This document shows positions 3,952 through 64,000 of a DNA stretch of 64,000 nt, in pieces. The stretch comes from an uncultured Clostridia bacterium (lineage in GTDB: Bacteria > Bacillota > Clostridia > Christensenellales > CALVMC01). The stretch spans positions 62,001 through 126,000 of the forward strand of contig CALVMC010000002.1 of assembly GCA_944342015.1 (NCBI GenBank), written 5' to 3'. The first letter of the stretch is position 1, and the number at the start of each line of letters is the position of its first letter. The notes under the pieces were generated by a model that did not search any database, was not told the DNA's origin, and saw nothing but the letters and a program-made list of their open reading frames with translations. The position numbers were made by a program, and so were the translations under genes.

Positions 3952-3958
3952 AGATAAG

Positions 3959-8570: not shown

Positions 8571-8599
8571 AAAAAACGCTCTTAAAAGAGCGTTTTTTT
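8571..8599 (+). terminator. Bidirectional intrinsic terminator after the GH13 gene
   Basis: AAAAAACGCTCTT, a 2-nt loop, then AAGAGCGTTTTTTT. The symmetrical A and T tracts allow it to act for the GH13 gene on the plus strand and for ftsY on the minus strand. Confidence 0.88.
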
Positions 8600-8617
8600 A
8601 TTTGTAATTTCCGAAAT

Positions 8618-8690: not shown

Positions 8691-8725
8691 AAAATTATAA
8701 TTAAAAACAAACTGATAAAAGTAAA

Positions 8726-37615: not shown

Positions 37616-37691
37616 TGGTGCGTCTTCAGGGACTCGAACCCTGGACCCACTGATTAAGAGTCAGTTGCTCTACCAACTGAGCTAAAGGCGC
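37616..37691 (-). tRNA. tRNA-Lys (anticodon CTT), CCA encoded
   Basis: Complete cloverleaf: D arm GCTC/GAGC, anticodon stem ACTGA/TCAGT with loop CTCTTAA, T arm CAGGG TTCGAGT CCCTG, 3' ACCA. Position 4-69 of the acceptor stem is a C-A mismatch (GCGCCTT against AAGACGC). It is the last gene of the tRNA array, read leftward. Confidence 0.95.
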
Positions 37692-37695
37692 ATAA

Positions 37696-37770
37696 TGGAG
37701 CGGGAAACGAGATTCGAACTCGCGACATTCGCCTTGGCAAGGCGACGCTCTACCACTGAGCCACTCCCGC
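37696..37770 (-). tRNA. tRNA-Gly (anticodon GCC), CCA encoded
   Basis: Acceptor GCGGGAG, anticodon loop TTGCCAA, T arm GCGAG TTCGAAT CTCGT, 3' TCCA. It is four bases upstream of tRNA-Lys(CTT). Confidence 0.97.
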
Positions 37771-37773
37771 AAG

Positions 37774-37856
37774 TGGTGCGGATGGCGGGACTTGAACCCA
37801 CACATCGAAGATACCAGATTCTAAGTCTGGCGCGTCTGCCATTCCGCCACATCCGC
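37774..37856 (-). tRNA. tRNA-Leu (anticodon TAG), CCA encoded
   Basis: Class II tRNA with a long variable arm. Acceptor GCGGATG/CATCCGC, anticodon loop CTTAGAA, T arm GTGGG TTCAAGT CCCGC, 3' ACCA. Confidence 0.97.
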
Positions 37857-37887
37857 ACGGTTTGACGGAAGTTTGGAGCGCCTTTTT

Positions 37888-37963
37888 TGGTGATCCATCC
37901 GAGAATCGAACTCGGGACACCATGATTAAAAGTCATGTGCTCTACCGACTGAGCTAATGGACC
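37888..37963 (-). tRNA. tRNA-Lys (anticodon TTT), CCA encoded
   Basis: Acceptor GGTCCAT/ATGGATC (one G-T pair), anticodon loop CTTTTAA, T arm CCGAG TTCGATT CTCGG, 3' ACCA. Confidence 0.97.
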
Positions 37964-37968
37964 ATATA

Positions 37969-38044
37969 TGGCTGGGGTGGCAGGATTTGAACCTACGAGA
38001 TGCCAGAGTCAAAGTCTGGTGCCTTACCGCTTGGCTACACCCCA
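37969..38044 (-). tRNA. tRNA-Gln (anticodon TTG), CCA encoded
   Basis: Acceptor TGGGGTG/CACCCCA, anticodon loop CTTTGAC, T arm GTAGG TTCAAAT CCTGC, discriminator G and CCA. Confidence 0.97.
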
Positions 38045-38052
38045 AAGTATAG

Positions 38053-38130
38053 TGGGGTGAGTAATGGGAGTCGAACCCATGACCTCCAGGGCCACAACCT
38101 GGCGCTCTAACCAACTGAGCTATACCCACC
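38053..38130 (-). tRNA. tRNA-His (anticodon GTG), CCA encoded
   Basis: Acceptor GTGGGTA with an encoded extra 5' G at position -1 opposite C73, the identity element of histidine tRNA. Anticodon loop TTGTGGC, T arm ATGGG TTCGACT CCCAT. Confidence 0.96.
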
Positions 38131-38139
38131 AAACCGTAC

Positions 38140-38216
38140 TGGCGAGCCTGAAGGGATTCGAACCCCCGACACACGGCTTAGAAGGCCGTTGCTCTATCCA
38201 ACTGAGCTACAGGCTC
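38140..38216 (-). tRNA. tRNA-Arg (anticodon TCT), CCA encoded
   Basis: Acceptor GAGCCTG/CAGGCTC, anticodon loop CTTCTAA, T arm starting GGGGG TTCGAAT, discriminator G and CCA. It reads AGA/AGG codons. Confidence 0.97.
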
Positions 38217-38221
38217 ACGAG

Positions 38222-38295
38222 TGGAGCGGGTGATGGGAATCGAACCCACGCAATCAGCTTGGAAGGCTGAGATTCTACCATTGAACTACACCCGC
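38222..38295 (-). tRNA. tRNA-Gly (anticodon TCC), CCA encoded
   Basis: First tRNA of the array. Acceptor GCGGGTG/CACCCGC, anticodon loop CTTCCAA, T arm GTGGG TTCGATT CCCAT, 3' TCCA. Confidence 0.97.
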
Positions 38296-46561: not shown

Positions 46562-47485
46562 TTAAGACAATAATTCTTTTGTATAATTGTCTAAAACCAT
46601 TTCTTTTTCGTTATAGGAAAAATAAACAGTTGTATTGTTAGTAGTCTGTTGATTATTGACAAACATATCGGAAGGGGCAATAATCGTATATTGGTCGCAG
46701 TTTTCATAACTTCTGATAAGTCCGTTTTTCCACATTGTAACTTTATAGTAGTGTTTAGTCAGCTCTACTCCTGCACCCTCCCTTTTATCTTCCGAAAGAG
46801 CGTTTTCAATAATAACATCGCCATAATCGCCTAAACTCGTAACCAAATCAAAACCTATGGTGAAAGTATAATAATCGCCTTCGTCGACAGGCTCAGTGGT
46901 TACGGAAGGATCTACCGTTTCTGCCGTATGATTGAAAGTAAACAGTTTTTTAGGATCATCGAGTGTGTATCCGGGGAAATATTCCGCATATGACATTGTA
47001 ATTTTATCGCCCCATTCTTTAACTCCGTAAATACCGTCTGTTTCCCCGAAGGACTTGGCTTCTCTTCTCGTTACGGTATCGTCTATGATAGCAACTTCGA
47101 CAGCGCTTTCAGCAAAACCTCTTACTATAACGAGAACGGGAGAGTCTGTAACTATAACGGTATTTTTGCTGTAAATATTTCCGTCCTGAATTATTTTGAC
47201 GGATTCGATATTCATATTGGCAAGAGGACTGTCTTCATCTCCTGCTTTGGCTTCGCCTATGGTAAGCATAGCGGTATAATTCTGATCGTAATAGTTTTTA
47301 ACACCCGCTTCGAACATTTCCCAAGCCGACATATTTTCGTTGATCGAATATGTAACTTCTATGTCTTTCGGAAGTGTTGCGCCGATAATATCGGGAGTTT
47401 CAACATTTACATTACAAGCCGCAATTGAAAAAATCAATAAAACGGTTAAAGTTGCTACAAAAATAATCTTGCAAAATTTTTTCAT
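46562..47485 (-). CDS. Predicted lipoprotein of unknown function
   Basis: 307 residues. A type II signal peptide, positive start then LTVLLIFSIAAC, gives a lipobox with Cys24. The mature part is beta-rich, acidic and free of other cysteines, with no motif I recognise. It begins 16 nt after the stop of the giant surface-protein gene and ends in a strong terminator, so the two are almost certainly co-transcribed. It could chaperone, anchor or otherwise serve the giant protein on the outside of the membrane. The LspA found at 16928-17539 would process it. Confidence 0.85.
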   Translation of the reverse strand: MKKFCKIIFVATLTVLLIFSIAACNVNVETPDIIGATLPKDIEVTYSINENMSAWEMFEAGVKNYYDQNYTAMLTIGEAKAGDEDSPLANMNIESVKIIQDGNIYSKNTVIVTDSPVLVIVRGFAESAVEVAIIDDTVTRREAKSFGETDGIYGVKEWGDKITMSYAEYFPGYTLDDPKKLFTFNHTAETVDPSVTTEPVDEGDYYTFTIGFDLVTSLGDYGDVIIENALSEDKREGAGVELTKHYYKVTMWKNGLIRSYENCDQYTIIAPSDMFVNNQQTTNNTTVYFSYNEKEMVLDNYTKELLS

Positions 47486-47501: not shown

Positions 47502-50500
47502 TTATTTTAATATATTCCTTCTTTTTTTAAGAAGAAAACTTATATACACTAAACTTATTATACCTAAGATACCTAATATTGAAGCAACAACGATAAGAGC
47601 TATATTTCTGGTATCGGGCATAATGGTAAGATAACTTTCGCCTTCCGAATTATCGACGACAATAACGAAGTTTTTACCTGCGCTTAAATTTTCAGCGCTT
47701 ATTAGATAAGTACCGGCACTTTCTCCCTGTTCTCTTACAAGTTCGCCTGTTATTTCAAGTTCGTCTAAAAATTCCTGTCCTGACACTATTTCATAATACA
47801 GCGTAGGATCAAGACTTCCTTGCAACTTGGAGTTGCCGTAAATTTTTACGACAATAGTTGCAGGAGTGATAGTACACATACCTTGCTTTTCTATAATGAA
47901 CTCATAAAGAGCATTGAGGTTTTCGTCCGTCATTTCCCATTTAATCGGGTATTCCCCTATTTCGGTTCCGTCGATTGACATTTTAGCGCCCTGTCTTATT
48001 TCCATAAGTATGAGCGAATTGAAGTCGGGTAAATTGGAATAACTTGCGGCAAATTGCGGTTGTGTTCCGTAATTTACGGTAGTATCGTTTACGGTGACAT
48101 AAATTTTCCATTTATCGACAGTAAGAGTACCTGCGACAAGTTGAATGTTATAGTTTGTCATATAAAGTTCTGTTGCAAAGTTAATATCGTAAGTACCCGG
48201 AATAATACGAGTTCCGACAGGCAGCGAAAAGGCTAATCTTGTAAGTTCCGCATCGCTGATACCGGGAAGAGTATCGAGAGTGGAAATCACGCCGTCTACT
48301 CTGTACTTATAATCGTTGATAATTTCGCCGTAAGTTATATTGATATCTTCGAATTGAACTATAACCAATTTTTTGACCAAGCGAGTCGTATATTCAGCAT
48401 TATTGAAATCGGAAATCAAGTTATTCGTAATTTTATCTTCTTCCGTATAGAAGCTTGCAGATACGGAATTTTTAAACGCAGGAAGAGTCAAAACATAAAT
48501 ATTTGCACTTGGACTCATAGCGTCTATACCCGACTTCACATATATCGAAGCATAATCGCTTGTGCCGTTAATAAGCATACCCGATACAAGAAAATCGGAA
48601 AGCGTATATCCGTGATTTGCTTTACCGTTGATAAGTAAAGTATATTGAGGTTCGGTATTATATTCGGTAGTTACATTATAGCCTTTTCCGTCTTCTTCAT
48701 CTATAATAATTTCTATTTCAGATTTTTCGACCGTAAGGCTGAACTTGTCGAGTTTTACGGAAACAGAATTATTATCTCCCCCATTTGCGTAAACTACGAG
48801 ATTATAGAAACTTGTAACATCTTTTCCGTTTTCATCGTAAACTTTAAATGAATAATCGTAATTTCCCGCCGTATAGTCGAGATTTCCGTTTGAAGAATTT
48901 TCTTTACCCGAAGAAGCAAGAACGGCTTTAAGGATATGAGTATTGACGGTAAGGAAATTATTTTTAAGGAGTTCTATATAATAATCTCCGCCTTCTATTG
49001 TATTGCTCCAAGGTGCAATAACAGGGATACTTTCGGTATATTTAATGGTTATTCCGTTGAAATACCTATCCGTGCCGTAATTACTTGTTATTCCGAAATT
49101 AACGGTTTTTGGATTTACTTTAATATTAAGTATTTTGATATTTTCGCTGTAATTCTGATAATCCAAAATTTCGTAATTAGTAAGACTGTTTCCGTTAAGC
49201 GAAACATAGAAGTCGTTGTTATCGGGTGAAATTAAGCCGGTAACGGTTACGCCGTTATTGTTTTTGATAAATATAGCGTCTTTTAAAATATCCTGAACGG
49301 TGTCGCCATTAACAAGATGGGAAGCTATATAAGTTTCCAGCTTTTTTAACGCAGCTTCTTTCCACCCTTCTTCGCCTGCGACAAGTTCACCGTAAATATA
49401 TTCGAGAGTCTCGTAATTTTCTATTTTATTTAACTGTATTGTCTTTTTGTTTACATTGATTGTATAGGATGCGGAACTGATAATATAACTCGAAGTTATA
49501 TCCGCACCGAGACTGTTCAAAACTTTAAAGTCACTTGTATTTACAGTATAAGTTCCTGCGGGCAAACTGTTAAACTGCGATTGCAAGAAAATTTCTCCGT
49601 TTGCATTTATAAGATTAAAAGTACCGCTTATTGTATCGCCCGGAACGAGTTTTGAAGTCAGATTGGAGAAAAATCCGTTTTCCAAATCGCTAATAGAAGA
49701 GGTATTTCCGTAAACATATACAATACTTTCATTGGAAACGGATACGCTCTTTGCGTAAATATTACCTGTCAAACCGGATTTGACGCTGAATGTTACAAAA
49801 TAATTGTTTTTAAGCCCGTCAATTAATTCAAGACCGCCTTTATCGCTTGTGAAGGTAATATTTATTCCACCTGCCGAAGCGGATTCGGCATTCTTTTTAT
49901 TGCTGTATTTTGAAGAATAATTAAGTATAGCCGAATTTTCAGCGTAGCTCAATGCGGCGGTTAAAGAGCCTTCGGAAACAAGAGATAATTTATAATTATT
50001 TATGTCTTCACCTTTGAGTCCGTTTGTATTAGATGTTTCGAAAATGTAGTCTGAATCCGATTGAACGACGACATCGGCGGTTCCGTCATAGATTTTATCT
50101 TTTGCCGAATCTTTTGCCGAATCTTTTAAAGAAACAATAACTTCAAGAAGTGCGGAAGAAACGGTGACTACAAAATTCTTTCTTAACAATACTTCGTTAT
50201 AATTATTGGTTACGGTTAATGTAACACTATAACCGTTTGCGTAAACATTTTTTATAAATGCGGTATCGAATAAATCGGTTTTGTTTACTTCGTTTTCATC
50301 GGTGTAAGAGCCTGAGAATTCGAAATTCAATTTTTCATTGACGGGTATTGAGTTAATAAGGGTATTAAATACCGATTGTTGATACTCGCCTTTTTCATCT
50401 TTAAAGCCGCCCATTATAAGTACAGGTTTTCCGTTTTCGATTTTCACATCGAAGAGATATGCGGTATTTTTAATAGATTGAGAGCTACTGCTTTCAATAT

Positions 50501-53500
50501 TACCGAACTTACCTTGGTCGGAAACGTTTAAAATATTTGCTCTTATAGTACTGTTGTTTCCGTTATAAGTATAAGAGTAATCGGGAGCTCCGATATATTG
50601 ATATATTGCTTCTATAACCGTATCTTCCTGTAAATAATTAAATTTATAAGAATATTTATAAGGACTCAAATAATTATCACTGCCCGAAATTCTGTATCCG
50701 ATAAATATATAAGAATTCAGCGCACCTATATAACTGTTTATGTTACTTGAAGTACTGCTGTCGTTTTCTTTATCTTCATTCGAATAAATAAAGGTAACCG
50801 AGCCGTTGTTGTCCAGACTGTAATTTTTCTCATCGTCCAGAACATTTCCGCTGTCGGTTACAAACTGAACGGTTATTGCAAGTTTTCTTGTAAGAGTTAT
50901 AGAAGAGGTTTTTGCAGAAAGATTAAAGTATTTAATAAAATCGGTACTCAAATTACTTTCCGAAATCGAACCCATATCTGCAACATAACCGTTTTGAAGT
51001 TCGAGTCTTAAATTATTTGTAGAATCGTTATAGAATAAATTAAACTCATCTGCATTTTTAATATTTGCGATTTTGATATATAAACCTTTTATCCCGCTTA
51101 ATTCTGCATAAGATTTTCCTGCAAAAGTATATTTAGTAAGTATATCGCTGCTGTCTGAAACGCCGGTAGCCGCAAGATAGGAATTTGTAACTGTTGCGCC
51201 TGTCAACATTTCCCCTATAATATAATCGCCTTCGGGACAAAGTATAACATCGAATAAAACATTCTCTATTTTGCCTGTCGAAGAAAGAGTTCCGATAGCG
51301 TTGTTAATCATTGTTTTATCTAATTTAACTGTTCCGTTTTTAACGGTTCCGCTGACGGTATCGAAGAAGGTATTGGAAACAATTAATCTTTTTCCGTTAA
51401 GGTCGAATACCATACCTGAGGGAACATTGAGCATTATAGCCTCATAACAGATAAGGTCGGACATTAATTTAGCAGTACCCGCCGTAAGGTTTGAATCTCT
51501 TAAAACCTTAACATCCTCAGCCGATTTAAGTTCGTAACCGTTTGTGCCTGTATTCAAGGTAACCACAAACTTGAAGGTACTCGTTCTGTAAACATCGCTC
51601 TCTTTAAGGGTTTTGTAGGTCTCGGTGTAATAAGTTGTTCCGACAGTATTTCCGTCTGAATCCTTACCGGAATAATCGACGAATTTATATAATGTATTCT
51701 GAGCGTTTTCTGAAATACTGAACACAAACTCTCCGCTTGCGGAAGAAGAGTTAAGCATATTCTGAGACTGATAGTAAATTACATTTATTTTTTCTGTTCC
51801 GATAACAGGTTCCGAAGAATAATAAGATATCGCCCAAACATTATAATTTTTATTCGAGATACCGAATTTTATCTGTTTGTTTCCGAAGTCATAAAGCAAA
51901 TCGTAAATATTTGCATTATTGGAATTAAGAACGAAAGTACTGTCGTTTTCATAACTCAAATTTACTGTAATAGTATTTCTTCCGCCCTCTATAATACCGT
52001 TAAAGTTCGTTAAAGTATAACTCTGAGTTAAATCCGATATACCGCTGCCCGAAAGGGTAATATTGTTTTCTATTCTGACCGTAACCGACGAAGCGTCAAC
52101 GGAAGAAATACTCTTCATAAACTCAACGAAGTTAATATAATCGGTTTCGTTTGATAATGAAGTATAAATAAATATTTTAACATTTACATTATCATAGAAC
52201 GACATTGAGCCGTTGAGGTTGTTCAGCGTAACATTAGAATTGATAATATTGTAGACTAGTTTCCCGTCGGAGTCTTTGTATTCCGCATAGATATAAGCGT
52301 CGTTGCCGTTTGCTGATTTTACCGTGAAAATTCCATCTGAGACGGTAACCTCATAATATCCGTCTGCTTGATTCAATACATATATGTTTTTAAGATTTAT
52401 AATATTTCTTCCGGAATAATCGGTTAATAAATAGGATTTTTCGACAACGCCGTTATTAGTTGCGGCGACTAAATAATTGTCATGCTGACTTGCGGCTGCC
52501 GTTTTTCCGTCAATAATAAGTAGCGAAGAAATTGTTCCCGTATTTGTATTTACGAAAACAGGATAACTTGCGGAAGAAGTATAAGCTGTTTTTCCGTATT
52601 CGCCAAGGAAGGAAATTTTTAAAGAATTGATATTTCCGCTGTTATTTTTTATAAAGCCTTCCTGATAAGAATACCCTGCCGAAGAATTGAGATTCAATTC
52701 TATTCCGCTTAAACTTCCCGAAAGAGTTTCAATAAAGTAGCTTGAATTTGAGGACAGCGAAATCGTAATCTTTCCTTTGCCCGTAATGCTGCCCGAAAAT
52801 TCTTTAATAGAAGACGGATTATTTAATTCAATAACAGAATTATCCGCTATACTGAAATTTTTATCGGAAAGGATATCCGCATTAAAATTCGAAGCATTGG
52901 TAACCAAAGCCAACAAATTGAAGACGGTTTCAGCATTAGAATTATTTATGTTTTTATCGATAAGAATTATAAACCCATGGAAAATATTATCGAGAGAAAC
53001 GGAATCGATAAAATATTTATTGTTATTGTTATTTAGAATATTATAACCGCTTTCCGTTTTTTCAAAGGCTAAATCGGCAAATTCGGAATTATAAATTTTT
53101 ATAGCCTTAGTTCTTTCCCCGTCGAATCCGGAAGAAAGAGTATTGGATTTTTCATTTGCAAGAAGCAGTTTGCAGTTATTTACATTTGAACCGGTAAACA
53201 TATTTTCGGTTATATTGTTGGAATAAACAAGTATATTCAAAACACTGCCCGAAGTGCTTGAAGAATTAATTTTCATACCCGCCGAAGTTTGGTCGTTTAC
53301 TATAATATCGGTTATATCACCAAGAACATTGAAGAGGCTTTTAATTTCCTGAATATTTCCCGTAACATTTATAACTTTATCGTTACCGTTTAATTTAACA
53401 AATGAATTTACCGAAACATTCGAAGAATTGATCTTTGAAATATCGACAATCAAATCTTCGACGATATTAATTGTAACTATGTTACCCGACGAGCCTGCGA

Positions 53501-56500
53501 CATATTTAAGTGCCAATAAATCGCCGTCATACTTTATGTCCTTGCCGTATCTTAAAATATACTTTTGATTTTCGGAACTTTTTGCTATACTTACGGACGA
53601 AGAATTTGCAGTAACGGTATTATCGTATTCGCCGTTTTTATAAAGAGTAAGTATATTGTCTTTGGTAATGTTTGCGAACGTGATAATATAATTATCAGCG
53701 TCTGAATTAGTGATTATAAAGTGTTCGCTTACATTTTCCAATCCCTCTACGGAAACAATATTGAAGCCTGTCGTATTATCGATATTTGCATAATCGGACA
53801 TATTGAAAGAAACGGCAAAGGAAGAAAGGGCTTTTTGAAGCTGTGACTCTTTATATGACGGAACAACCCTTCCTGCCATAATAGAGAAGTGGTCGATATA
53901 TCCGAAGTTTTCTATCTCCGACAAACTTATACCCTGTCTTAAAAAATCGCCGCCGTTAAAGTAAACATAAACATTTGAAACCGAAGAATTCGTTCTGCCC
54001 GCAAAACCGCCTGCATAAGCAAACTCCCCTGCAAGGATATTATTGAGATAGAAAGAAACATCGGTTAAGTTGATTATTGCAGAAGAAACATTATTTTCGC
54101 TGTAAGAAAGATTTGCTCCTACAAAGCCGCCGAGATTGGCAGTCTGACCGGTACCGTAAACGGCTGAATTTCTCATTGTCAAATTGGAATTTTCGATAAC
54201 TCCCGATTCTGTCTTTCCTGCAAAACCGCCGACTGCATTATTTGCCGTAAGAGTGGAATTTATTACGGAAACATTCGAGCTATAAATACCCGTATCGGAA
54301 ACATTGAGTCCTACAAGTCCGCCTGCGCTTCCGCCCGAAGAAACTATCGAAGAACCGTTTGTGATTTGTATGCTGCAAGAAATTATTTTTCCGTTATTTC
54401 TTCCTACAAGTCCGCCTGCGAAATTTGTTCCGCTGACAGTTCCCCCGGAAATTCTGACGGTAACGCTTTCAACCATTCCCTCGTTGATTGCGGCAAGAAC
54501 ACCTGTTATATCGGAGCCGGAAATATTAGAACTCAATTCGACTACAAGATTTTTAACAGTAACATTTTTTGCAATGTAACCGAATAATCCCATATTTGCA
54601 TATTCCTTAGCAAACACTCCCGAAATTACGGATACGGTCTTATTGTTTCCGTCGAATACGAATGAAAAATCCGAAGTAGTTACAATAGGTTGTATCAAGG
54701 CAGCCTGTGAAGAAGTAATCGTAATATTATTTGAAAGTTTAAAGGTTTTAAGTGACCCGTCTGAATTTGTAATTCCGCTGAATTTATTGCTGTTGACTGA
54801 ATCTATAAAATAAATAAAGTCATTGAAATCGGCGATATCTGTTTTAATAAATACGGCGTAAATATACTGAGCGGTACTGAATACCGACGCATTTAAATCG
54901 GATTGAGAACTTATTTGTTCTGGATTGATTTCACCTAAATTTTTATAGTAACCCGAAAAATACTGCATATTACTCGTGAATACAATATTATTTGAAATAA
55001 ATTCAGCCGTCACCGAACCGTCGCCTATAATTTTTATAACGGAAACAGCCGATTGATTTATGGCGACAGATGAAAACTCGTCTATAACCGCCCATGCCGA
55101 TGATGAACCTGTACCGTCAAGAACATAAATAACCGTTCCCGACGGAGCGGAAAGATTATCCTGCGAAACATTTACGACCGCAACGGAACTCGATGTTCCC
55201 GAGTTATAAGCTATGGCTCCCGCAACGGTAGCATAAATACCGTTGCTTGCCTTTATAGAACCGCCTTCGTTGAAATTAACGATAATTCCTTCAACGGTAA
55301 GAGTGTAAGCGGAATCCGAATAAATTGCGCCTGCGGCACCCGAACCGTTATGGGAAAGAGTTACGGAATTATTTATATCTATTTTAAGATTGGAAACGGC
55401 ACCTGTATTGAACAAAATGCCAAGACCTACTTTGGAATACATAGCATTCGATGCGATATTTCCGTACAGAACAAAGGAAGCATTTGTAACCCTCCCCTGA
55501 TTGTTATAAATTAAACCAGTAAATTCGTATATATTTAAGGAAGAGCTTTGAGCAACTGTAACTACGATATTATTCAAAGTACCGTAATTATAAAGAACGG
55601 CAGCGGCAAATTTTGAAGAGGAATTTATATTCCCTTCTATATTTACATTTACATCTGAAATACTACCGTAATTATAAATCGCTATCAATGCGCTATCGTT
55701 TTTTATTAAATTTTCCGAACCGGTAGTTATTAAATTGAGATTTAAAACCTTACCGCTTTCATCTATTCTGTTAAACAGAGCGGAATCGGGTTTTAATGTT
55801 ATTGTGTTTCCGTTTCCTTTAAAGGTTCCTCTGAACCCTTTTGACTGAGTACCTGCAGAAAGATACGAAACGGAAGACAAATCTATCGAAGACAGAACAT
55901 CAAAAGTCAACCCCCTTAAATCCAGTCCTGCCGAAACAGCATAAGAAAGTTCCATCATATCGTCGGGAACGGAAATTGCAAGGTTTAAAGCAATCAGACT
56001 GATATCGAGATTTTTATCGTTTACGGTAGAAGAATAAGACTGTATATTATTTGAGCTTGTAACTCCGCTTAAACTTGTCTGAGTCTCGTAATTTCTGAAC
56101 CAGTTAATGTAATAACCCGTTTTAACGTCTGTTTCGAATACAATACCCGAAGTAGAAAATTCATATCGGAAAATATCGTCGGAAGCAGCCGCAACAAATG
56201 TATTGATACCGGTAGGACGGGTAAAGTCGAAATAATTTTTGGCAAAACAAACAATCCAGCTGTTAGTTATGGAATAATTAGAAGAGCCTATCATTAAAAA
56301 TTCTTTTCTCAAAGCTTCACTTTCACTGTTTGCAGTCTCGTTCAGATTGAAGCCAAACCCGTCACCTATTTCGAAAACAACGTTTTCGATTTTTCCGCCT
56401 AAGTTTCTGATAAGACTTGCCTGCCTTACTGTTCCTAAACCTAAAATTCCGTCAGCCACTATTCTTATGTTTCTGATAGCGGCGTTTGTTCCCATAACAT

Positions 56501-59500
56501 CGATTAAATAACCTGTTTCGAGATTTTTTAATCTTAAAGTATATCCTTGTCCGTCAAGAGCAATATCGAATTTATTGAATCCTTTCGCCAAACTGCCACT
56601 TAATAATATGTCGTTAGTTAAAAATGCGGTAATACCTATATAATCTTCGGCATCGTAATCAGTTATTTGATTCAACGAATCAATCAAGTCTTCAAAATCT
56701 TTTTCACTTTCTATTCTGATTTTAAAGGAAGTTGCAAACATCTGAGTATTATTTGCCGATAATTCCTGGGGAGAATTTTGTATGAAAATTTGATCGAAAA
56801 TCCCGTTTTCTTCGAAACTGATATAAATATTGCTATTTGAAGTTACCTTTAATTTATTATCGCTGTAACTAAATATAATGTCATAAATATCGATTGCGGC
56901 TGTACTTAAAATATTAACTCCGTTCAATAAATCACCGTCGTTAACGCCACTTAATTTAACGGGTATAGCCGATTTATCCGTTCCGTTTTTAACAACAAGA
57001 TAAGAGTTTTGAATTTCAGCATTATCTCCTACTGCCGCAGCGAATCTGCCCGAGGCTGTATTGGAATTTAATTGACTCTCGTTATAATAAACAACGGTAT
57101 TTTTAACCTTTCCTTTTATAACACCTGCAAGAGCGCCGGTATAATCGCTTGTAGAATCTCCCAAAACGCTTTGATTCATTTTAACTATTAAATTTCTTAC
57201 TTCCCCTTCGATTATACCGAAAATACCCGTATTTTCCTTACTCGTAAGACCTGCGTTTACGGTTATGGTATATCCGTTACCGTCATATATTGCTTTGAAC
57301 CCGTCTATTCCGATAGGGTCAAAGAAGGAGTTTATCTCAATATCGGCACTTTGGATATAAACCAGTCCCGGCACATTATAACTTGTAAAAATCTTATTCG
57401 CTATATTTGTAGATAAATTATTCAAGTCTGTAAAATTAGAAATCACGAACTTATTATAAACTATATAAGAAATACCGTAATTTCCCACACTGTATGTTTT
57501 TCTCAAAACAGAAGAATCGGAATTTGTTTGGAAAACATCACCGTCTCCTAATATAATCGTGACTTTATTTTTTATATCGTTATTATAATTAATTTCGCCG
57601 TTAGTTTTAATAAAATCAACAGTCAGGTTTTGTGAATCTAACGATAAGCGGAATTTTATTCCTATACCGGGTAAATCGTTACGGGCAAGGAATGTTGTTG
57701 ATTTTTCGTTCAACGCAGAACCCGAATTAGCGGAAAAGGCGTTAAAATTCTGATAATTTTTAAACCATACATTATTGACTTTCTCTGCAAATTTTTGATA
57801 ACCCGCAATACCGCCAATAGATGCCATATCGCTGATACCGTTTTCAAGTATAATGTCATAGTCTAAATCAACTAAAATATTATAAATCGAACCTTCGCTG
57901 TACCCTGCGATAAAACCGAAGAACAGCGAATCTTTTCCCACCGTAATATTACCGTTTGTCTTTATTGTCAAATTGAAAATCTGACCTGCAGCTCCTAAAC
58001 TTCCCACAAGACCTGAATACATTAAACCGCTTTTGAAGTTAAAAGTTGAACCCAGAGTTATAGTATTATAATTGCCGTTAATAGTGCCGTTAAAGGTATA
58101 GACATTTCCCTCCGGCACTCCTAATGGCTGATATCCGCTGATATCCATAACAAAATTGTTTGTGATATTTATAGTAATACCCTTTAAATCGAAATCGTGA
58201 GAATAACCGGCTACATTTGAGAAATCGGTTGCGCTATTAACGTCAAAGTCGAGATAAACGGCAAAGTAGTCTTTATTTGACATACTCTGAGAAAATTCAA
58301 AAGAATTAATATTCTGTCCCGAACCGGAAACTTCATCTTCGTAAAAACCGCTGCCGCCTAAGCCGTTCACGGTAATGATACCTGCGTCCATAGAAATATC
58401 AACGACATTGGCTCCGTTCACAGAGTTATAAGAAGTATAGCCTATAATATTCAAACGGTTAAGTCCGAAATTATTTTCCAAAGCGTCGCTGTAAGCATTG
58501 TTTTTTGCAATAAGCCATACATTTGACAATGCGGAATTGATATAACCGAAAATGCCGCCCGGAACACTCTTTGCAGAACTTACATTCACCTGACCTTTTG
58601 AGCCATCGGAAGAGGAACCGTATTTTACGTTGTTCCTTATAAGAACGGCAGAGTTTGAAACAGTACCCTCGCAATAAGCTGCAAGAGCGCCGGCATAACT
58701 CGTACCTGTAATAACGCCGTCAAGAACAACGGCAATATTGGAAATTCTGCCGTTACTTCCCATATATCCTATAAGACCTGCATAATCGGCATAAAGATTT
58801 ACATTTGAAGAAATGGTAACTTTATGGTTATTGCCGTTAATAAATCCGTTAAAGCCGGTATAAATGTTGCCGTAAACATCGGTCACGGAAAAATTGGGAT
58901 TTCCGAGAGGAACGAATTCCGCATCCGACAGAATATCGAGATCGCTGTTTATATTAATCCATATACCGAAAAGATAAGCAGTATTCGAAGTATTGAATAT
59001 ATTGGCGATATTTACTAAATCGGAATAAGAATTTACTTCGGTAACGATCTGAGAAAGATAGTAATCTAAACTTGTTCCGGTAGCCGGCAAATTATAGACA
59101 TAAGTCAAAGCTTTCGAAGTATCGACATCGAAAGCATACCCTGTGTTTCTGTTATAAACTTTGACTGAGTTATTGTAAGGGAAAGTAATTTCAGAACTTG
59201 CGACAACTACGGAAACACTGATAATATTACCTGTAAACTCGGCATTAATGGTACCGTTACCTGCGACGCTGAAAACATTTATACCGCTGTTATCGAAGTT
59301 GCTGGGATTTATAATAAGATTATTTCTTTTAACAAGCCATGAGTTAACATCTGAATAAACCGTCGTGTCGTAAGAAACGCCTGCGAAATATTTGGCTGCT
59401 ATATTATTATCTGCAAGGTAGGTCAAAAGGCCGTTAACGGTGCCGCCGATTCTGTATCCTATCGCACCTGCGGCAAACCCGGACGACATATTAAGATTTT

Positions 59501-62500
59501 TAATTTTACCTAAAATATAAACTGAACTTTGCGAAATATTTGCATAACCTGCGCCTAAAAGTCCGCCGACAGCGCCGCCCAAAATACTGAAAGCCCCGAA
59601 ATTAACGCTGTCCGAATAATCGTTACCTTCGCTGTAAATACCGTAACCCTGCGAAATATTTACGGTAGTATTCGATAAATTTCCGTTAAGCATCTGAACG
59701 CCCAAAGCGCCGCCTGCAACGGAACCCGTGTAAATGTTTCTTGAAACATTTACGGTAGTAAAATAAACGGAAGAATTGGTATAATTTTCAGCAACCACGC
59801 CGCCGAAAGTACTTATAAAAGATACTTTATCGTCATAAACGGAAGAGCCTATAATATTTACCGTATTGACAAGATTGGAAAGACTCGAACTTCCGACGCT
59901 TGCTTGATTGAACACGACTAACCCACCGAATTTATAAACGTTTATCGGATTGAAATCGCTGTTGTAATCGGCTTTGATACCTGCAATAATTCCAGCCTGA
60001 TTATAAGCGATACCGCCTGAAAAAGCCACTCTCGATTGATTTGCGGATATCGATTCGCTTCCGACAATACCGTATATGTAGGTTGCCGCAGAGTAAATAT
60101 TACCGTTATTGTAATAAGCAAGACCGCCGAAAACGGCATTATTGGAAACAGGCAACAGTTTAGCGCCTGCACCTAATCTGAAAAAGGTTGTATAACCCAA
60201 ATCGGCAGAACTTTCAATTGTTCCGAAATTCCACCAAGCGATACCGCCGAAACTGTCGGTTTTAACCGAGCCTGTGCTTTGAGAAGAGAAGGTACCTATT
60301 TCGACCGAACAGTCGGAAATCAAGCCGTTTTCGTTATTTCTTAACACAATACCGCCGAACCAGCCGTCAACGGAACCGATTTCTATATATGAGGAATATC
60401 GGATATTTACATCTTCGATAATACCGTTATTATAATAAGCAATACCGTAGAAATTGGAATGAACACTGGAATTTGCGGAATTGTTTAAATAAGTAATATT
60501 TACATTTTTTATTCCGCCGTAACGTGAAATGTTGTAAAACAGCGAAACGAAATAATTCCTTCCCGAGGACAGATAAAAGTTTATATTATAACCGTTCCCG
60601 TTAAGTATGCTGTTAATGTCGTTTGAACAATAAAAGCCGCTGAACGTATTCCCTGTATTGATATCGGAAGCCGTTCCTATATTGAAATCTATATTGCTAA
60701 CGAGATAGAACTGAATACCTTTATAAGAACCAACTGTCTGGTTAAAGTAGGCTCTCAAATCCGATTCGGAATCGATCTGATTCTGAATATAATACACTGC
60801 AATATTTTTACCGTCGTAAGTATAAGAGCCGTTACTTGAATAATAGGAAGATAAATCGGTGCTTGTAGAATAAGTCGTTCCGTCGTCGTAGTCCAAAAAG
60901 CCTATAAAGGGAATTTCCTCTCCTGACGAATTGAGAATGGTTTGCTTTGCCGTAACGGTGAGCTGTCCTAAGGAATCCTTCGTCACGGAAAGGGCTCCGA
61001 AGTTTTCACTGTCCGCACCTTGCCCGTAAACCTTGATTAATGTTGCCTTATAAGTTGAATTAGCATTAGCTGCTCCTGCCGCAATTTTAAGAGAAGAGGT
61101 ATCGTAATTGCCGCTAACTATAACTAAATTATTAAGAAACTGCACCCCGCCCGTTCCGATAACGGCATTGGGAAGATTAGCCGAATTGAGTCCGCTAGAA
61201 AGTACTACCGCATTGTTTGTTATGACAGAACCGTTTACAGCCTGACCTGCTACAAGTCCGTGAGTACCCGTAAAAGCAGAATTTTTGATATTGTTATTTA
61301 CATAAACAATACATCCGTTTACAGTGCCGCCGCTTTCAACCTCACCCGCAATGCCGCCGAATATGCTTGTATTATCCGTTGCGCTTATTGTGCCGCCCGA
61401 AAAACTTACCGAACAGTTATTTATCCTGCCGCCCGATAAGACTTCTGTCGCAATTGCGCCGAAAGTTGAATTGCTACTTATATTGAAACTTGAAACTGTC
61501 AAAAAATCGATATTAACATTATCAACTTTACCATATAAAGTACGGACAAGTGGGCTATACATCCTGTTATATCCAGTTCCATAACTATTAAATACCAAAT
61601 AAAGATTAATAACGGACCCGGAAGCCGCTACGGAACTGAAAATACTTCCTAATGTTTTATTAACTGTAATAGTGTAATTGTTTCCGTTGAAAGTGCCTTC
61701 GAAATTGTTAAACAGGCTAACCGTGTCCGAATTAAGGAAAGTCAAATCCGTTCTGAGATTAATAACGGTATTTTTAAATGTAACTCCGGCTTGAGCAAGC
61801 CTGTTAAAATCAGACAGATTATTTATGTCCGTGCTGTAAACGAAGAAGACGCCGACTACACTTCCCGTATGGGAAGCCGACAAGCTTATAGTAATTTCAT
61901 TTGAAGTATTTGTAATTGAGCCGCTTATTTGGGGATTTCCTGTCGCACCATAATAATTTCCGTATTTTATTTCGTTAAAGTAATTGATTTTAACGGTACC
62001 TGCGCTTATAGTTGCGGTAAATTTATCCATAAACCCTGCGCCTTGACCGTAACTACTACCTTCTTCACCCACAAGAATTTCAACGGCATTATAGTAAGAA
62101 ACATAACTTTTAACGGTTGTAGTAATCGTTCCGTTTGTTATGGTCTTATTCTCTCCTGCTGGTCCAGCTATACCGTTGAAATCATATATACCACCAACTA
62201 AATTTTTTGTATATTCAACTCCGTATTTTCCAGATTCACCCGTAGTTGTATCAACGCCGATAAAATAACTCTTCGTATAAGGAACATTATTTACCTGGTC
62301 TTTTGCAATAAAGTCCTCGTAAATTACCGCGCAGTTTTTAGTTACAACATTTATCGGAAATAAGGCGTTTCTGTGAGCAGTCGCCAATGTAAATAAAGAG
62401 ATATACTCAGAAACGCTGTTTAAATACGCCCACTCTTTACTTCTTTTATTTTCCGACGAATAATCGAGTCCGCTTAAATACTCCGCAACGGTATCTATGG

Positions 62501-64000
62501 AATTGAATGCATTAAGACTTGTAAATATAACTGAAATATCTTGAAAAGAAGTGCCATCATTTTTTGAACCATTAACTCTTCCACTGAACCCGCCTATATA
62601 AACGCCTAAATCGGAATTTCTCAGTTCGATTGTATTCATATCGAACTTTCCGTCGCCATATAAAGTAGGACTCTCTATATCAGATTCGACATAAGCCGCG
62701 CCGTCGAATTTTTTAACGAATTTATTGACTGCTACGGAAATTCTATTATAAGTACCGCCCTCTATTTTACCTATAAACCCGCCTAAATACATGAGCATGC
62801 TGTAAGCGCTGTAACCGTAAATTGTTCCTGCATTTTCAGAGCTGCAATCGGAAATGTTTGTGCGGTAACTTTTTCCTGCAAACCCGCCCGCACCGCTTCG
62901 AACATTTGCAGCATACGCTATAACGGAAGCCTCGCCTACTTTATCCACACTGTGCTGAGAGGATACGAAAGGATTGGAGCTTGCTATATAACTGTTTGAA
63001 GAAGATATAACCTTTATATTTTGAATAGTGGCAGAATCAGTAGTATGTTCCTCTAAACCTACAGCCCCCGCAAAGGCACCCGCAAAAACTTCCTTAAAGA
63101 CGCCGTCTGCACCTTGCGCCACTATATAAGCGTTATTTACTATCTTCAAATTTGTAACGGTCGCCTTGTTTGTTATAGCGCCGAAAACGCCTGCGTAGTA
63201 CTGCTCATATATAACCGAGCCTTGATTTAAGGTTATGGTATGATTATTTCCGTTAAATACAGAGCCAAAACTAACGCTTGCGCTGCCGAGGGGTAAAAGC
63301 CTGCTTTCAAAGGTTATATCCGCCATGAGATTTATTTCAATTCCTTCTATATAACCTGCTCCCATAGAGTAATCGTATGCTACCCTGTTAAAGTCGGCTG
63401 CCGAATAAATTTCATCCTTGAAAAACTCGATTAAAATCATTTTTCTGCCGCCGCTGAAACTATTAGAAGGTATTGAACTTCCTAAGGTAAAATCCAGAGC
63501 GGAAAGGTTATTGCCATCAAACCGTGCCGAAAAAAGGGAACTGTTTTGAGAATATAAGTTAGCAGTCGTTGTAATCGATTTTTGCTTGTTTAAATTATAA
63601 GTTTCCTCTAAACTGAGCCAAACATACTCTGCCGTGTACACACCGTAATTGCCGCTGTCGTCACGGTATAAATTTTCGGGATTTTTAATCGATAAAATAA
63701 GGTCGCTGCCGCCTGCTATAACTTCCGCAAAGCCGCCGCCTGCAATAAAAACCTTTTTACAGTAATTTAAATCATGGGTATCCAAAAGCCCCGTTACGGG
63801 CGCTAAAACTAAAATATTGGAAAGTTTTTCAGTAATATCTAGTATTTCGGTCATAGAAACATAGCCAATTATAGCTCCAGCATAATTTTTATTGTAAGTT
63901 TCTACCCAAATATTTTCACCATTCGTCGAATTATTTTTATTCGTTGAATAATTCTGAACAACCGAAGACGATATGGCGTTTGAAAAAATTACAGCATTGT
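47502..64000 (-). CDS. Giant modular surface protein (GLUG/beta-helix modules, YDG and MBG-like domains, C-terminal anchor); 5' end beyond window
   Basis: The frame is open from the stop at 47502 to the right edge: 5498 codons seen, no start. An ATG at 63854 is internal, since the 48 codons before it read on in the same style (ending AGAIIGYVS). No signal peptide is therefore visible. About thirteen diverged beta-helix modules follow one another, each with an xDFNxLA-type lead, an FNGNNHTITL-like core and a GVFGxI or GGLVG(R/Y)N GLUG motif. Core positions are near 63250, 61680, 60590, 58830, 58070, 57270, 56550, 55810, 54645, 53380, 52770, 51980 and 51390. Next comes a short repeat-like region (about 50560-51000), a YDG domain (DKIYDGTADV), several MBG-like strands (ITYGEIINDYKY, VNYGTQPQF, GTYLISAENLSAGKNF), then MPDTR, a membrane helix and KKRRNILK. 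It is probably an extracellular fibrous adhesin or matrix protein. Confidence 0.9.
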   Translation of the reverse strand, partial: NAVIFSNAISSSVVQNYSTNKNNSTNGENIWVETYNKNYAGAIIGYVSMTEILDITEKLSNILVLAPVTGLLDTHDLNYCKKVFIAGGGFAEVIAGGSDLILSIKNPENLYRDDSGNYGVYTAEYVWLSLEETYNLNKQKSITTTANLYSQNSSLFSARFDGNNLSALDFTLGSSIPSNSFSGGRKMILIEFFKDEIYSAADFNRVAYDYSMGAGYIEGIEINLMADITFESRLLPLGSASVSFGSVFNGNNHTITLNQGSVIYEQYYAGVFGAITNKATVTNLKIVNNAYIVAQGADGVFKEVFAGAFAGAVGLEEHTTDSATIQNIKVISSSNSYIASSNPFVSSQHSVDKVGEASVIAYAANVRSGAGGFAGKSYRTNISDCSSENAGTIYGYSAYSMLMYLGGFIGKIEGGTYNRISVAVNKFVKKFDGAAYVESDIESPTLYGDGKFDMNTIELRNSDLGVYIGGFSGRVNGSKNDGTSFQDISVIFTSLNAFNSIDTVAEYLSGLDYSSENKRSKEWAYLNSVSEYISLFTLATAHRNALFPINVVTKNCAVIYEDFIAKDQVNNVPYTKSYFIGVDTTTGESGKYGVEYTKNLVGGIYDFNGIAGPAGENKTITNGTITTTVKSYVSYYNAVEILVGEEGSSYGQGAGFMDKFTATISAGTVKINYFNEIKYGNYYGATGNPQISGSITNTSNEITISLSASHTGSVVGVFFVYSTDINNLSDFNRLAQAGVTFKNTVINLRTDLTFLNSDTVSLFNNFEGTFNGNNYTITVNKTLGSIFSSVAASGSVINLYLVFNSYGTGYNRMYSPLVRTLYGKVDNVNIDFLTVSSFNISSNSTFGAIATEVLSGGRINNCSVSFSGGTISATDNTSIFGGIAGEVESGGTVNGCIVYVNNNIKNSAFTGTHGLVAGQAVNGSVITNNAVVLSSGLNSANLPNAVIGTGGVQFLNNLVIVSGNYDTSSLKIAAGAANANSTYKATLIKVYGQGADSENFGALSVTKDSLGQLTVTAKQTILNSSGEEIPFIGFLDYDDGTTYSTSTDLSSYYSSNGSYTYDGKNIAVYYIQNQIDSESDLRAYFNQTVGSYKGIQFYLVSNIDFNIGTASDINTGNTFSGFYCSNDINSILNGNGYNINFYLSSGRNYFVSLFYNISRYGGIKNVNITYLNNSANSSVHSNFYGIAYYNNGIIEDVNIRYSSYIEIGSVDGWFGGIVLRNNENGLISDCSVEIGTFSSQSTGSVKTDSFGGIAWWNFGTIESSADLGYTTFFRLGAGAKLLPVSNNAVFGGLAYYNNGNIYSAATYIYGIVGSESISANQSRVAFSGGIAYNQAGIIAGIKADYNSDFNPINVYKFGGLVVFNQASVGSSSLSNLVNTVNIIGSSVYDDKVSFISTFGGVVAENYTNSSVYFTTVNVSRNIYTGSVAGGALGVQMLNGNLSNTTVNISQGYGIYSEGNDYSDSVNFGAFSILGGAVGGLLGAGYANISQSSVYILGKIKNLNMSSGFAAGAIGYRIGGTVNGLLTYLADNNIAAKYFAGVSYDTTVYSDVNSWLVKRNNLIINPSNFDNSGINVFSVAGNGTINAEFTGNIISVSVVVASSEITFPYNNSVKVYNRNTGYAFDVDTSKALTYVYNLPATGTSLDYYLSQIVTEVNSYSDLVNIANIFNTSNTAYLFGIWININSDLDILSDAEFVPLGNPNFSVTDVYGNIYTGFNGFINGNNHKVTISSNVNLYADYAGLIGYMGSNGRISNIAVVLDGVITGTSYAGALAAYCEGTVSNSAVLIRNNVKYGSSSDGSKGQVNVSSAKSVPGGIFGYINSALSNVWLIAKNNAYSDALENNFGLNRLNIIGYTSYNSVNGANVVDISMDAGIITVNGLGGSGFYEDEVSGSGQNINSFEFSQSMSNKDYFAVYLDFDVNSATDFSNVAGYSHDFDLKGITINITNNFVMDISGYQPLGVPEGNVYTFNGTINGNYNTITLGSTFNFKSGLMYSGLVGSLGAAGQIFNLTIKTNGNITVGKDSLFFGFIAGYSEGSIYNILVDLDYDIILENGISDMASIGGIAGYQKFAEKVNNVWFKNYQNFNAFSANSGSALNEKSTTFLARNDLPGIGIKFRLSLDSQNLTVDFIKTNGEINYNNDIKNKVTIILGDGDVFQTNSDSSVLRKTYSVGNYGISYIVYNKFVISNFTDLNNLSTNIANKIFTSYNVPGLVYIQSADIEINSFFDPIGIDGFKAIYDGNGYTITVNAGLTSKENTGIFGIIEGEVRNLIVKMNQSVLGDSTSDYTGALAGVIKGKVKNTVVYYNESQLNSNTASGRFAAAVGDNAEIQNSYLVVKNGTDKSAIPVKLSGVNDGDLLNGVNILSTAAIDIYDIIFSYSDNKLKVTSNSNIYISFEENGIFDQIFIQNSPQELSANNTQMFATSFKIRIESEKDFEDLIDSLNQITDYDAEDYIGITAFLTNDILLSGSLAKGFNKFDIALDGQGYTLRLKNLETGYLIDVMGTNAAIRNIRIVADGILGLGTVRQASLIRNLGGKIENVVFEIGDGFGFNLNETANSESEALRKEFLMIGSSNYSITNSWIVCFAKNYFDFTRPTGINTFVAAASDDIFRYEFSTSGIVFETDVKTGYYINWFRNYETQTSLSGVTSSNNIQSYSSTVNDKNLDISLIALNLAISVPDDMMELSYAVSAGLDLRGLTFDVLSSIDLSSVSYLSAGTQSKGFRGTFKGNGNTITLKPDSALFNRIDESGKVLNLNLITTGSENLIKNDSALIAIYNYGSISDVNVNIEGNINSSSKFAAAVLYNYGTLNNIVVTVAQSSSLNIYEFTGLIYNNQGRVTNASFVLYGNIASNAMYSKVGLGILFNTGAVSNLKIDINNSVTLSHNGSGAAGAIYSDSAYTLTVEGIIVNFNEGGSIKASNGIYATVAGAIAYNSGTSSSVAVVNVSQDNLSAPSGTVIYVLDGTGSSSAWAVIDEFSSVAINQSAVSVIKIIGDGSVTAEFISNNIVFTSNMQYFSGYYKNLGEINPEQISSQSDLNASVFSTAQYIYAVFIKTDIADFNDFIYFIDSVNSNKFSGITNSDGSLKTFKLSNNITITSSQAALIQPIVTTSDFSFVFDGNNKTVSVISGVFAKEYANMGLFGYIAKNVTVKNLVVELSSNISGSDITGVLAAINEGMVESVTVRISGGTVSGTNFAGGLVGRNNGKIISCSIQITNGSSIVSSGGSAGGLVGLNVSDTGIYSSNVSVINSTLTANNAVGGFAGKTESGVIENSNLTMRNSAVYGTGQTANLGGFVGANLSYSENNVSSAIINLTDVSFYLNNILAGEFAYAGGFAGRTNSSVSNVYVYFNGGDFLRQGISLSEIENFGYIDHFSIMAGRVVPSYKESQLQKALSSFAVSFNMSDYANIDNTTGFNIVSVEGLENVSEHFIITNSDADNYIITFANITKDNILTLYKNGEYDNTVTANSSSVSIAKSSENQKYILRYGKDIKYDGDLLALKYVAGSSGNIVTINIVEDLIVDISKINSSNVSVNSFVKLNGNDKVINVTGNIQEIKSLFNVLGDITDIIVNDQTSAGMKINSSSTSGSVLNILVYSNNITENMFTGSNVNNCKLLLANEKSNTLSSGFDGERTKAIKIYNSEFADLAFEKTESGYNILNNNNNKYFIDSVSLDNIFHGFIILIDKNINNSNAETVFNLLALVTNASNFNADILSDKNFSIADNSVIELNNPSSIKEFSGSITGKGKITISLSSNSSYFIETLSGSLSGIELNLNSSAGYSYQEGFIKNNSGNINSLKISFLGEYGKTAYTSSASYPVFVNTNTGTISSLLIIDGKTAAASQHDNYLVAATNNGVVEKSYLLTDYSGRNIINLKNIYVLNQADGYYEVTVSDGIFTVKSANGNDAYIYAEYKDSDGKLVYNIINSNVTLNNLNGSMSFYDNVNVKIFIYTSLSNETDYINFVEFMKSISSVDASSVTVRIENNITLSGSGISDLTQSYTLTNFNGIIEGGRNTITVNLSYENDSTFVLNSNNANIYDLLYDFGNKQIKFGISNKNYNVWAISYYSSEPVIGTEKINVIYYQSQNMLNSSSASGEFVFSISENAQNTLYKFVDYSGKDSDGNTVGTTYYTETYKTLKESDVYRTSTFKFVVTLNTGTNGYELKSAEDVKVLRDSNLTAGTAKLMSDLICYEAIMLNVPSGMVFDLNGKRLIVSNTFFDTVSGTVKNGTVKLDKTMINNAIGTLSSTGKIENVLFDVILCPEGDYIIGEMLTGATVTNSYLAATGVSDSSDILTKYTFAGKSYAELSGIKGLYIKIANIKNADEFNLFYNDSTNNLRLELQNGYVADMGSISESNLSTDFIKYFNLSAKTSSITLTRKLAITVQFVTDSGNVLDDEKNYSLDNNGSVTFIYSNEDKENDSSTSSNINSYIGALNSYIFIGYRISGSDNYLSPYKYSYKFNYLQEDTVIEAIYQYIGAPDYSYTYNGNNSTIRANILNVSDQGKFGNIESSSSQSIKNTAYLFDVKIENGKPVLIMGGFKDEKGEYQQSVFNTLINSIPVNEKLNFEFSGSYTDENEVNKTDLFDTAFIKNVYANGYSVTLTVTNNYNEVLLRKNFVVTVSSALLEVIVSLKDSAKDSAKDKIYDGTADVVVQSDSDYIFETSNTNGLKGEDINNYKLSLVSEGSLTAALSYAENSAILNYSSKYSNKKNAESASAGGINITFTSDKGGLELIDGLKNNYFVTFSVKSGLTGNIYAKSVSVSNESIVYVYGNTSSISDLENGFFSNLTSKLVPGDTISGTFNLINANGEIFLQSQFNSLPAGTYTVNTSDFKVLNSLGADITSSYIISSASYTINVNKKTIQLNKIENYETLEYIYGELVAGEEGWKEAALKKLETYIASHLVNGDTVQDILKDAIFIKNNNGVTVTGLISPDNNDFYVSLNGNSLTNYEILDYQNYSENIKILNIKVNPKTVNFGITSNYGTDRYFNGITIKYTESIPVIAPWSNTIEGGDYYIELLKNNFLTVNTHILKAVLASSGKENSSNGNLDYTAGNYDYSFKVYDENGKDVTSFYNLVVYANGGDNNSVSVKLDKFSLTVEKSEIEIIIDEEDGKGYNVTTEYNTEPQYTLLINGKANHGYTLSDFLVSGMLINGTSDYASIYVKSGIDAMSPSANIYVLTLPAFKNSVSASFYTEEDKITNNLISDFNNAEYTTRLVKKLVIVQFEDINITYGEIINDYKYRVDGVISTLDTLPGISDAELTRLAFSLPVGTRIIPGTYDINFATELYMTNYNIQLVAGTLTVDKWKIYVTVNDTTVNYGTQPQFAASYSNLPDFNSLILMEIRQGAKMSIDGTEIGEYPIKWEMTDENLNALYEFIIEKQGMCTITPATIVVKIYGNSKLQGSLDPTLYYEIVSGQEFLDELEITGELVREQGESAGTYLISAENLSAGKNFVIVVDNSEGESYLTIMPDTRNIALIVVASILGILGIISLVYISFLLKKRRNILK
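47607..47621 (-). other. Codons for MPDTR, a sorting-signal-like pentapeptide
   Basis: The pentapeptide MPDTR stands directly before a hydrophobic helix of about 22 residues and a tail KKRRNILK at the C-terminus of the giant protein. The three-part layout is that of a sortase signal, but the last residue is Arg in place of Gly and Met replaces Leu. It may be a variant signal or a plain membrane anchor. Confidence 0.4.
50095..50129 (-). repeat. Short tandem repeat inside the giant gene
   Basis: The 12-nt unit TTTTGCCGAATC (plus strand) occurs in tandem, giving KDSAKDSAKDK in the protein just before the YDG domain. It is a simple in-frame duplication. Confidence 0.7.

Follow-up and report, generated by a model that had tools for sequence, protein, structure and literature searches.

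The locus described here raises the question of what a reading frame encodes that runs for 5,498 codons without a stop (47502..63998, minus strand) up to the edge of the analysed DNA, and what a bacterium might do with such a protein. The window, by which we mean the whole analysed stretch of 64,000 nucleotides, is G000:C2:62001-126000 of its parent contig, where G000 is a 1.44-Mb draft genome of 18 contigs that is 85.6% complete. An earlier reading of the window (the sequence-only reading) had described an uninterrupted frame of at least 5498 codons, had argued that the ATG at 63854 is not the real start and that the protein is larger, and had pointed to the DNA right of 64000 as the place to look for a start and a signal peptide. 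We read on in the parent contig and found the start at an ATG 1,465 bases past 64000 (C2:127465). This ATG is preceded by the ribosome-binding site GGGGGAGAG and directly followed by the signal peptide MTKRKFVSLKSVRFIVLLLIAAIVFS. The ATG at 63854 is therefore internal, and the full-length product of the gene, termed A, has 5,987 residues. The frame itself is seen directly, and the membrane anchor expected at the end of the protein is present as one C-terminal helix. A TATAAT-like box lies before A, where promoter-like sites number 3 against a shuffle mean of 3.9 and are not in excess.

Most of A is built of one kind of module. An iterated HMM found 12 significant module cores, one insignificant core and some partial stretches, with the cores lying between residues 106 and 5015; the HMM was iterated on the same protein, and its E-values, like those of the B repeats below, are optimistic. 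The modules are strongly diverged; in an alignment of nine, identity to the first is 16-28%, and the only invariant columns over these nine are D, G, G, N, G, which read as structural. The sequence-only reading had named them diverged beta-helix/GLUG modules followed by YDG- and MBG-like domains. GLUG (PF07581) passes the Pfam cut-off once in A, at C2:116174-116242 (window 54174-54242, 23.6 bits vs 20.5 in a search of the own genome); a second match in that search stays below the cut-off at 9.0 bits, and hmmscan of A pieces listed no GLUG. With only one of 12-13 modules over the cut-off, the support for GLUG is thin. The MBG part of the description stands, as MBG_2 (PF18676) matches in three stretches with 36.8 bits vs a gathering score of 25 (E 6e-9). 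The YDG part does not: Pfam gave no YDG match at E<=1 in the scanned residues 1-821 and 989-5987, and only one YDG-like motif is visible. The features are collected in Table 1.

Table 1. Features of gene A and its downstream neighbour, gene C, with positions counted in the window; beta-helix is the predicted fold.
Feature	Residues of A	Position	Strand	Basis or remark
Gene C, 307-aa predicted lipoprotein		46562..47485	-	begins 16 bp after A
Giant gene A, in-window part	490-5987 of 5987	47502..64000	-	open frame; start ATG C2:127465
C-terminal membrane helix and basic tail KKRRNILK	5949-5987	47505..47621	-	sequence
Best of three MBG_2 (PF18676) stretches	5872-5937	47655..47852	-	Pfam
YDG-like motif KIYDGTADV (YDGTADV from 5126)	5124-5132	50046..50090	-	by eye
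Module-like core	4925-5015	50421..50693	-	iterated HMM
Beta-helix module core	4418-4570	51756..52214	-	iterated HMM
Possible module core (not significant)	3965-4084	53214..53573	-	iterated HMM
Beta-helix module core	3525-3678	54432..54893	-	iterated HMM; GLUG match over cut-off just after
Beta-helix module core	3143-3282	55620..56039	-	iterated HMM
Beta-helix module core	2902-3034	56364..56762	-	iterated HMM
Beta-helix module core	2657-2798	57072..57497	-	iterated HMM
Beta-helix module core	2391-2539	57849..58295	-	iterated HMM; inside modelled residues 2113-2652
Beta-helix module core	2125-2282	58620..59093	-	iterated HMM; inside AlphaFold2-modelled residues 2113-2652
Beta-helix module core	1545-1696	60378..60833	-	iterated HMM
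Beta-helix module core	1196-1321	61503..61880	-	iterated HMM; within fastest-evolving stretch 1001-1500 (dN/dS 0.61)
Beta-helix/GLUG module core	667-821	63003..63467	-	iterated HMM

An AlphaFold2 model of two A modules (residues 2113-2652) reached a mean pLDDT of 51.5, with the cores mostly at 60-80. The best Foldseek E was 7e-3. The top structural neighbour is 3n6z, a Bacteroides protein titled putative IgA1 protease (Z 11.3, rmsd 4.3, 175 residues); 7uvk gave Z 9.2 and the L. reuteri SRRP 5nxk gave Z 8.0 (rmsd 3.1, 125 residues), and Z values of 8-11 may reflect mere common arrangement. We take these top neighbours to be beta-helix proteins. The model, of modest confidence, is consistent with A modules being right-handed parallel beta-helices, the kind of fold named in the sequence-only reading. 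Sequence-profile searches of the PDB with A and B modules gave no match.

Lyases too use the beta-helix fold, and the structural neighbours of the A module include many lyases, for pectate, alginate and other substrates. A might accordingly be pictured as an enzyme array whose modules, as polysaccharide lyases or hydrolases, break down glycans at the surface of the cell. We regard this as improbable. The best neighbours are the beta-helix parts of IgA1 proteases, presumably non-catalytic, the SRRP adhesin is also in the list, and the five invariant columns look structural. No enzyme family passed the cut-off in the Pfam scan of A pieces, nor in two pieces (1,000 and 540 residues) searched with NCBIfam, where the weak sub-cut-off matches included two enzymes. 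Protease, S-layer and SH3 families are absent from the Pfam matches of A, and no HExxH motif is found in A, in B or in three A relatives.

Proteins of this size had been called rare in the sequence-only reading. A is indeed a giant, but a larger gene lies next upstream and homologous giants recur in the order. This gene, termed B, lies outside the window at G000:C2:127604-154810, 138 bp upstream of A on the same minus strand, and encodes a predicted lipoprotein of 9,068 residues. The protein begins MHKFKTLNK, and its lipoprotein signal ends FFVAC with the lipobox cysteine; the lipobox calls for B and its relatives were made by pattern and by eye. About 19 repeats of ~300 residues each, separated by Ser/Glu/Asn-rich linkers, were found by iterated HMM between residues 143 and 6303, and Ig-like Big_4 stretches follow them (Pfam). 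A Pfam search of B residues 27-260 and 2472-9068 and of one sister repeat gave nothing over cut-off except Big_4, and no S-layer family is among the matches. NCBIfam gave no match over cut-off for the N-terminal domain and one repeat. Sub-cut-off matches such as Phage_Gene47 and Rad9 were treated as chance. In the scanned stretches the repeats of B thus appear unclassified.

To our eye the look of the B repeats, with a helix, long antiparallel strands and a YY...LYLDL...KIKL motif, recalls LppX/LolA-type lipoproteins. The repeats could then be modules for lipids or other hydrophobic ligands, and the pair would move or hold lipids or polymers in the envelope. Apart from the look of the repeats, what speaks for this is a LolB chain at Z 3.8 (rmsd 5.6, 74 residues), a value within noise for a repeat model of low confidence (pLDDT 52.1). 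Foldseek returned nothing for the B module at E<=0.001, and the stretches scanned gave neither a Pfam or NCBIfam match over cut-off nor a PDB sequence match. We give little credence to such a role.

As both genes come from a draft assembly of 18 contigs, they might also be assembly artefacts, pseudogenes or recent functionless tandem expansions. This explanation is extremely improbable, and we ruled out an artefact or a pseudogene. From base composition, the chance of a stop-free reading of A is ~10^-189. In each of the remaining five frames the same stretch contains 233-518 stops. The longest exact direct repeat inside A is 19 bases, which makes misassembly via repeats unlikely. Both frames are also intact in a separate assembly, that of G001, the one other species compared within the window's genus. 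The open frame of A in this sister species has 5,991 residues, and A aligns over 5,978 residues with 92.2% identity, dN 0.044, dS 0.199, dN/dS 0.222 and eight indels. B aligns over 9,057 residues with 94.2% identity, dN/dS 0.143 and fourteen indels. Because the indels come from aligned proteins of two open frames, they necessarily comprise whole codons. GyrB of the two species is 100% identical. These values indicate a selected gene and not an assembly error or pseudogene, and by these comparisons both A and B are under purifying selection. Full A proteins of a second family, f16, likewise argue against an artefact. They have 6,373, 6,394 and 6,395 residues, share 31-49% identity along their length and carry a membrane helix at the C-terminus; between G016 and G065, both of this family, 10 of 13 modules pair in order.

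The constraint is not even along the two proteins. By thirds, pN/pS is 0.416, 0.194 and 0.172 in A and 0.113, 0.133 and 0.349 in B. Since A is anchored at its C-terminus and B at its N-terminus, the fast third is membrane-distal in both. The distal third differs from the rest in a chi-square test on change counts with p 4e-12 for A and p 3e-22 for B. Positive selection is not shown: pN exceeded pS with at least 10 nonsynonymous changes in none of 294 windows along A and in two of 448 along B. The higher distal pN/pS could reflect relaxed constraint. A hydrophobic stretch at B ~7276-7340 (G000, G001) differs strongly between the sisters and lies inside a stretch with dN/dS 0.655. As a candidate for a conserved membrane-inserting element it was rejected, being seen at that position only in f1, the family of the window's genus, and not in other families.

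Synonymous divergence shows another pattern. The dS is 0.46-0.75 in seven upstream neighbour genes and 0.57 in gene C, and averages ~0.2 in A and B. The low values form a broad valley, G000:C2:109502-154810, across the B-A junction, where dS is lower than in the neighbours by a factor of two to several. In B, four-fold sites differ by 20-35% up to residue 3,000 and by 4-13% from residue 5501 on; in A they differ by 7-17% up to residue 4,000 and by 22-27% over the last 1,000 residues. In the two genomes compared, the valley suggests DNA exchange between the two species, with the B-A junction at its centre.

Gene C was weighed as a conserved third partner and rejected. In 3,252 frames of the searched loci, phmmer detected it nowhere but in the window and the sister, and its likeness to the B N-terminal domain (E 0.015) falls under the inclusion threshold. 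A hairpin with a T run follows gene C (by eye), and gyrB, gyrA and spoIVA lie beyond it. The window also holds an eight-tRNA gene cluster at 37616-38295 (minus strand). Near the giant locus, a 2,778-residue gene at G000:C2:163246-171582 (minus strand) has an L15-like C-terminal domain (end by eye). The sister copy at G001:C2:169894-174000 (minus strand) has a ribosomal protein L15-like end (PF00828, 24 bits vs 21.5), and so does a 5,221-codon MBG-rich frame at G139:C9:9718-25380 (minus strand; PF00828, E 1.7e-12).

We searched for B among 396 genomes of the order. A single 2,997-residue piece of B had matches in 4 of them, and a profile of 15 repeats in 63 (own and sister included), which belong to 24 of 142 genera and to the families f1, f3, f6, f16 and f24. 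In a class-wide sample of 371 genomes, which also held order members without B, the profile matched the own genome only. From the other 62 genomes 17 B loci were fetched, a non-random choice made mostly for long frames or contigs; some of the remaining matches are in short frames limited by their contig. In 16 of these loci there is a single complete giant frame of 7,108-12,524 residues, the lengths being upper limits because the first start codon was taken. In the remaining one, G102, a 3,139-codon frame fills the entire 9.4-kb contig and is cut by it. All 16 complete relatives possess a lipobox-like cysteine after an N-terminal hydrophobic stretch. G006 and G136 have no stretch among the matches listed for the local B-module model, and their assignment comes from the repeat profile (E 7e-7 and 3e-5) and from the N-terminal domain, whose model was built including them. 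A tree of 16 N-terminal domains groups by family, with 4 label changes (the minimum possible) vs a shuffled mean of 9.0 and strong support at only 3 of 13 inner branches. The f16 B proteins (G065, G224, G016, G084) contain 135-205 cysteines each, vs 5-25 in the other counted relatives.

The modules of A are more widespread. The A-module profile, which was built from G000 itself, had matches in 237 of the 396 genomes, which makes the module a common one there. A query with the last 2,000 residues of A had matches in 14, outside the genus mainly over the MBG part. Among the matches listed, A-module frames of more than 4,700 codons occur in G000, in G001, in twelve f16 genomes (4,773-6,400) and in one f28 genome (5,470). 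A of G000 and A of G016 share 23% identity over 2,246 columns. Pairwise scores and profiles from three f16 relatives were both used to look for module-by-module orthology between f1 and f16, without success: only 2 of 10 profiles best-matched the expected A module, and conservation of module order between the two families is therefore not shown.

The gene downstream of B was examined in 17 complete B loci, own included. In five (G000, G001, G065, G016, G224) it is an A-type gene, directly downstream on the same strand with gaps of 48-138 bp, in which 17-21 stretches match the A-module profile and a C-terminal membrane helix is present. The B-A order is thus found in the window's genus and in f16. 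Judged by match coordinates, both genes also lie on one contig with A downstream in G182, G215, G267 and G118. In G084 the contig ends after B and an A-type frame is on another contig. Each of the 16 f16 genomes in which B matches shows an A-module match too, though the module is common. No A-type gene follows B in six f3 loci (G003, G034, G056, G077, G140, G380; the G140 contig ends ~3.3 kb downstream of B) or in four f24 loci (G049, G136, G161, G195), among which G049 has a 2,204-codon frame after B with no A-module match. In G006 (f6), B is followed by a giant of 4,343 residues with a signal peptide and a membrane helix, again with no A-module match.

The nearest described system appears to be the giant gene cluster of Apilactobacillus kunkeei (PMC12863079). 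Its Giant1-5 are consecutive genes for proteins of 3,000-8,000 aa with signal peptides in a 1.5-Mb genome; Giant1-4 carry a beta-solenoid domain resembling L. reuteri SRRP, and recombination is reported inside the cluster. A and B likewise are consecutive giant genes with predicted signal peptides, SRRP is among the structural neighbours of the A module model, and the exchange suggested by the dS valley at B-A would parallel the recombination in A. kunkeei. There are also differences. The A. kunkeei giants have SH3b-like C-terminal domains and no predicted transmembrane domain, whereas A has a C-terminal membrane helix and no SH3 family among its Pfam matches. Their beta-solenoid is only N-terminal and their other repeats differ, whereas predicted beta-helix modules fill most of A. 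Unlike in that cluster, the partner of A is a lipoprotein of unrelated repeats.

A also resembles known GLUG (PF07581)/MBG (PF18676) surface proteins in its one GLUG over cut-off and its MBG_2. Smaller GLUG-bearing proteins of 1,248-2,474 aa, and another of 1,428 aa or more that runs into the end of a contig, are encoded elsewhere in the own genome. A exceeds the other GLUG-bearing proteins read in G000 more than twofold in length and is paired with B. Four large surface-protein genes lie in tandem at G000:C6:69384-94213 (minus strand). Their products have 2,474, 2,453, 1,773 and at least 1,428 residues, the fourth running off its contig; a membrane helix is visible by eye, and two of the products have almost the same cytosolic tail. 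The beta-helix parts of Gram-positive IgA1 metalloproteases and of L. reuteri SRRP belong to the solved folds closest to the A module, but A differs from the metalloproteases (M26) in having neither HExxH nor a protease family among its Pfam matches. Unlike sortase-anchored surface proteins, A has no C-terminal LPXTG, and MPDTR precedes its helix. In three f16 A relatives the final 150 residues contain no LPXT-type motif. Sortase (PF04203) gave no match at E<=0.1 in the own genome, which is 85.6% complete, so that a missing match does not prove absence. Sortase anchoring of A is therefore unlikely.

In a survey of huge proteins, surface proteins of attachment or recognition rank next after peptide/polyketide synthases among bacterial giants (PMC11573180). 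A alone would therefore be of a kind already known. Neither the B-A pair nor the recurring giant lipoprotein B was found described in the literature on giant proteins and GLUG that we covered, with subscription papers and preprints outside this coverage.

From the anatomy of the two proteins, the nearest folds and the distal variability, we infer that A and B are two co-encoded surface fibres with anchors at opposite ends that act in contact or adhesion, a reading to which we assign a probability of roughly 0.6. Against it count the modest confidence of the models, the weak Foldseek E of the A module, the lack of any known match for the B repeats scanned, the relaxed constraint that the distal pN/pS could reflect, and the f3, f24 and f6 loci in which no A-type gene follows B. 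A would be a Sec-exported fibre that consists of a signal peptide, 12-13 beta-helix modules joined by small beta domains, MBG beta domains and the C-terminal helix. B would be the second giant fibre, with an N-terminal lipid anchor, ~19 repeats and then Ig-like repeats (Big_4). Both may extend from the cell as fibres of great length held to its surface by opposite termini, and their distal ends might contact glycans, other cells or host surfaces. The same proteins might instead be structural parts of an envelope or matrix, such as an S-layer-like coat or a biofilm scaffold, and not ligand-binding adhesins. Size, repeats, membrane anchoring, purifying selection over most of both genes and the occurrence of B-type repeats in 63/396 genomes of the order would all agree with that. 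The faster distal evolution in A and B fits a contact surface better than a lattice, and no S-layer family is among the Pfam matches, and we consider a purely structural role unlikely though worth keeping in mind.

Beyond the contact fibres proposed here, a broader picture can be drawn only tentatively, and it is possible rather than probable. B and A might form an old, order-wide surface apparatus of tandem-encoded fibres, perhaps more than 100 nm long (a rough guess), one with an N-terminal lipid anchor and the other with a C-terminal membrane anchor. The B repeats would then be a new family or fold, and B, with 7,000-12,500 residues in five families, would represent the ancestral core, alongside which some families retain A-type partners. 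In the organism itself, A and B take up 45 kb, ~3% of a 1.44-Mb genome, and are maintained by purifying selection. The recurring lipoprotein B of 7,000-12,500 residues, whose repeats gave no Pfam or NCBIfam match in what was scanned, represents a large unannotated share of the surface in several uncultured families, and the recurrence of the B-A pair makes a joint role of the two giants testable.
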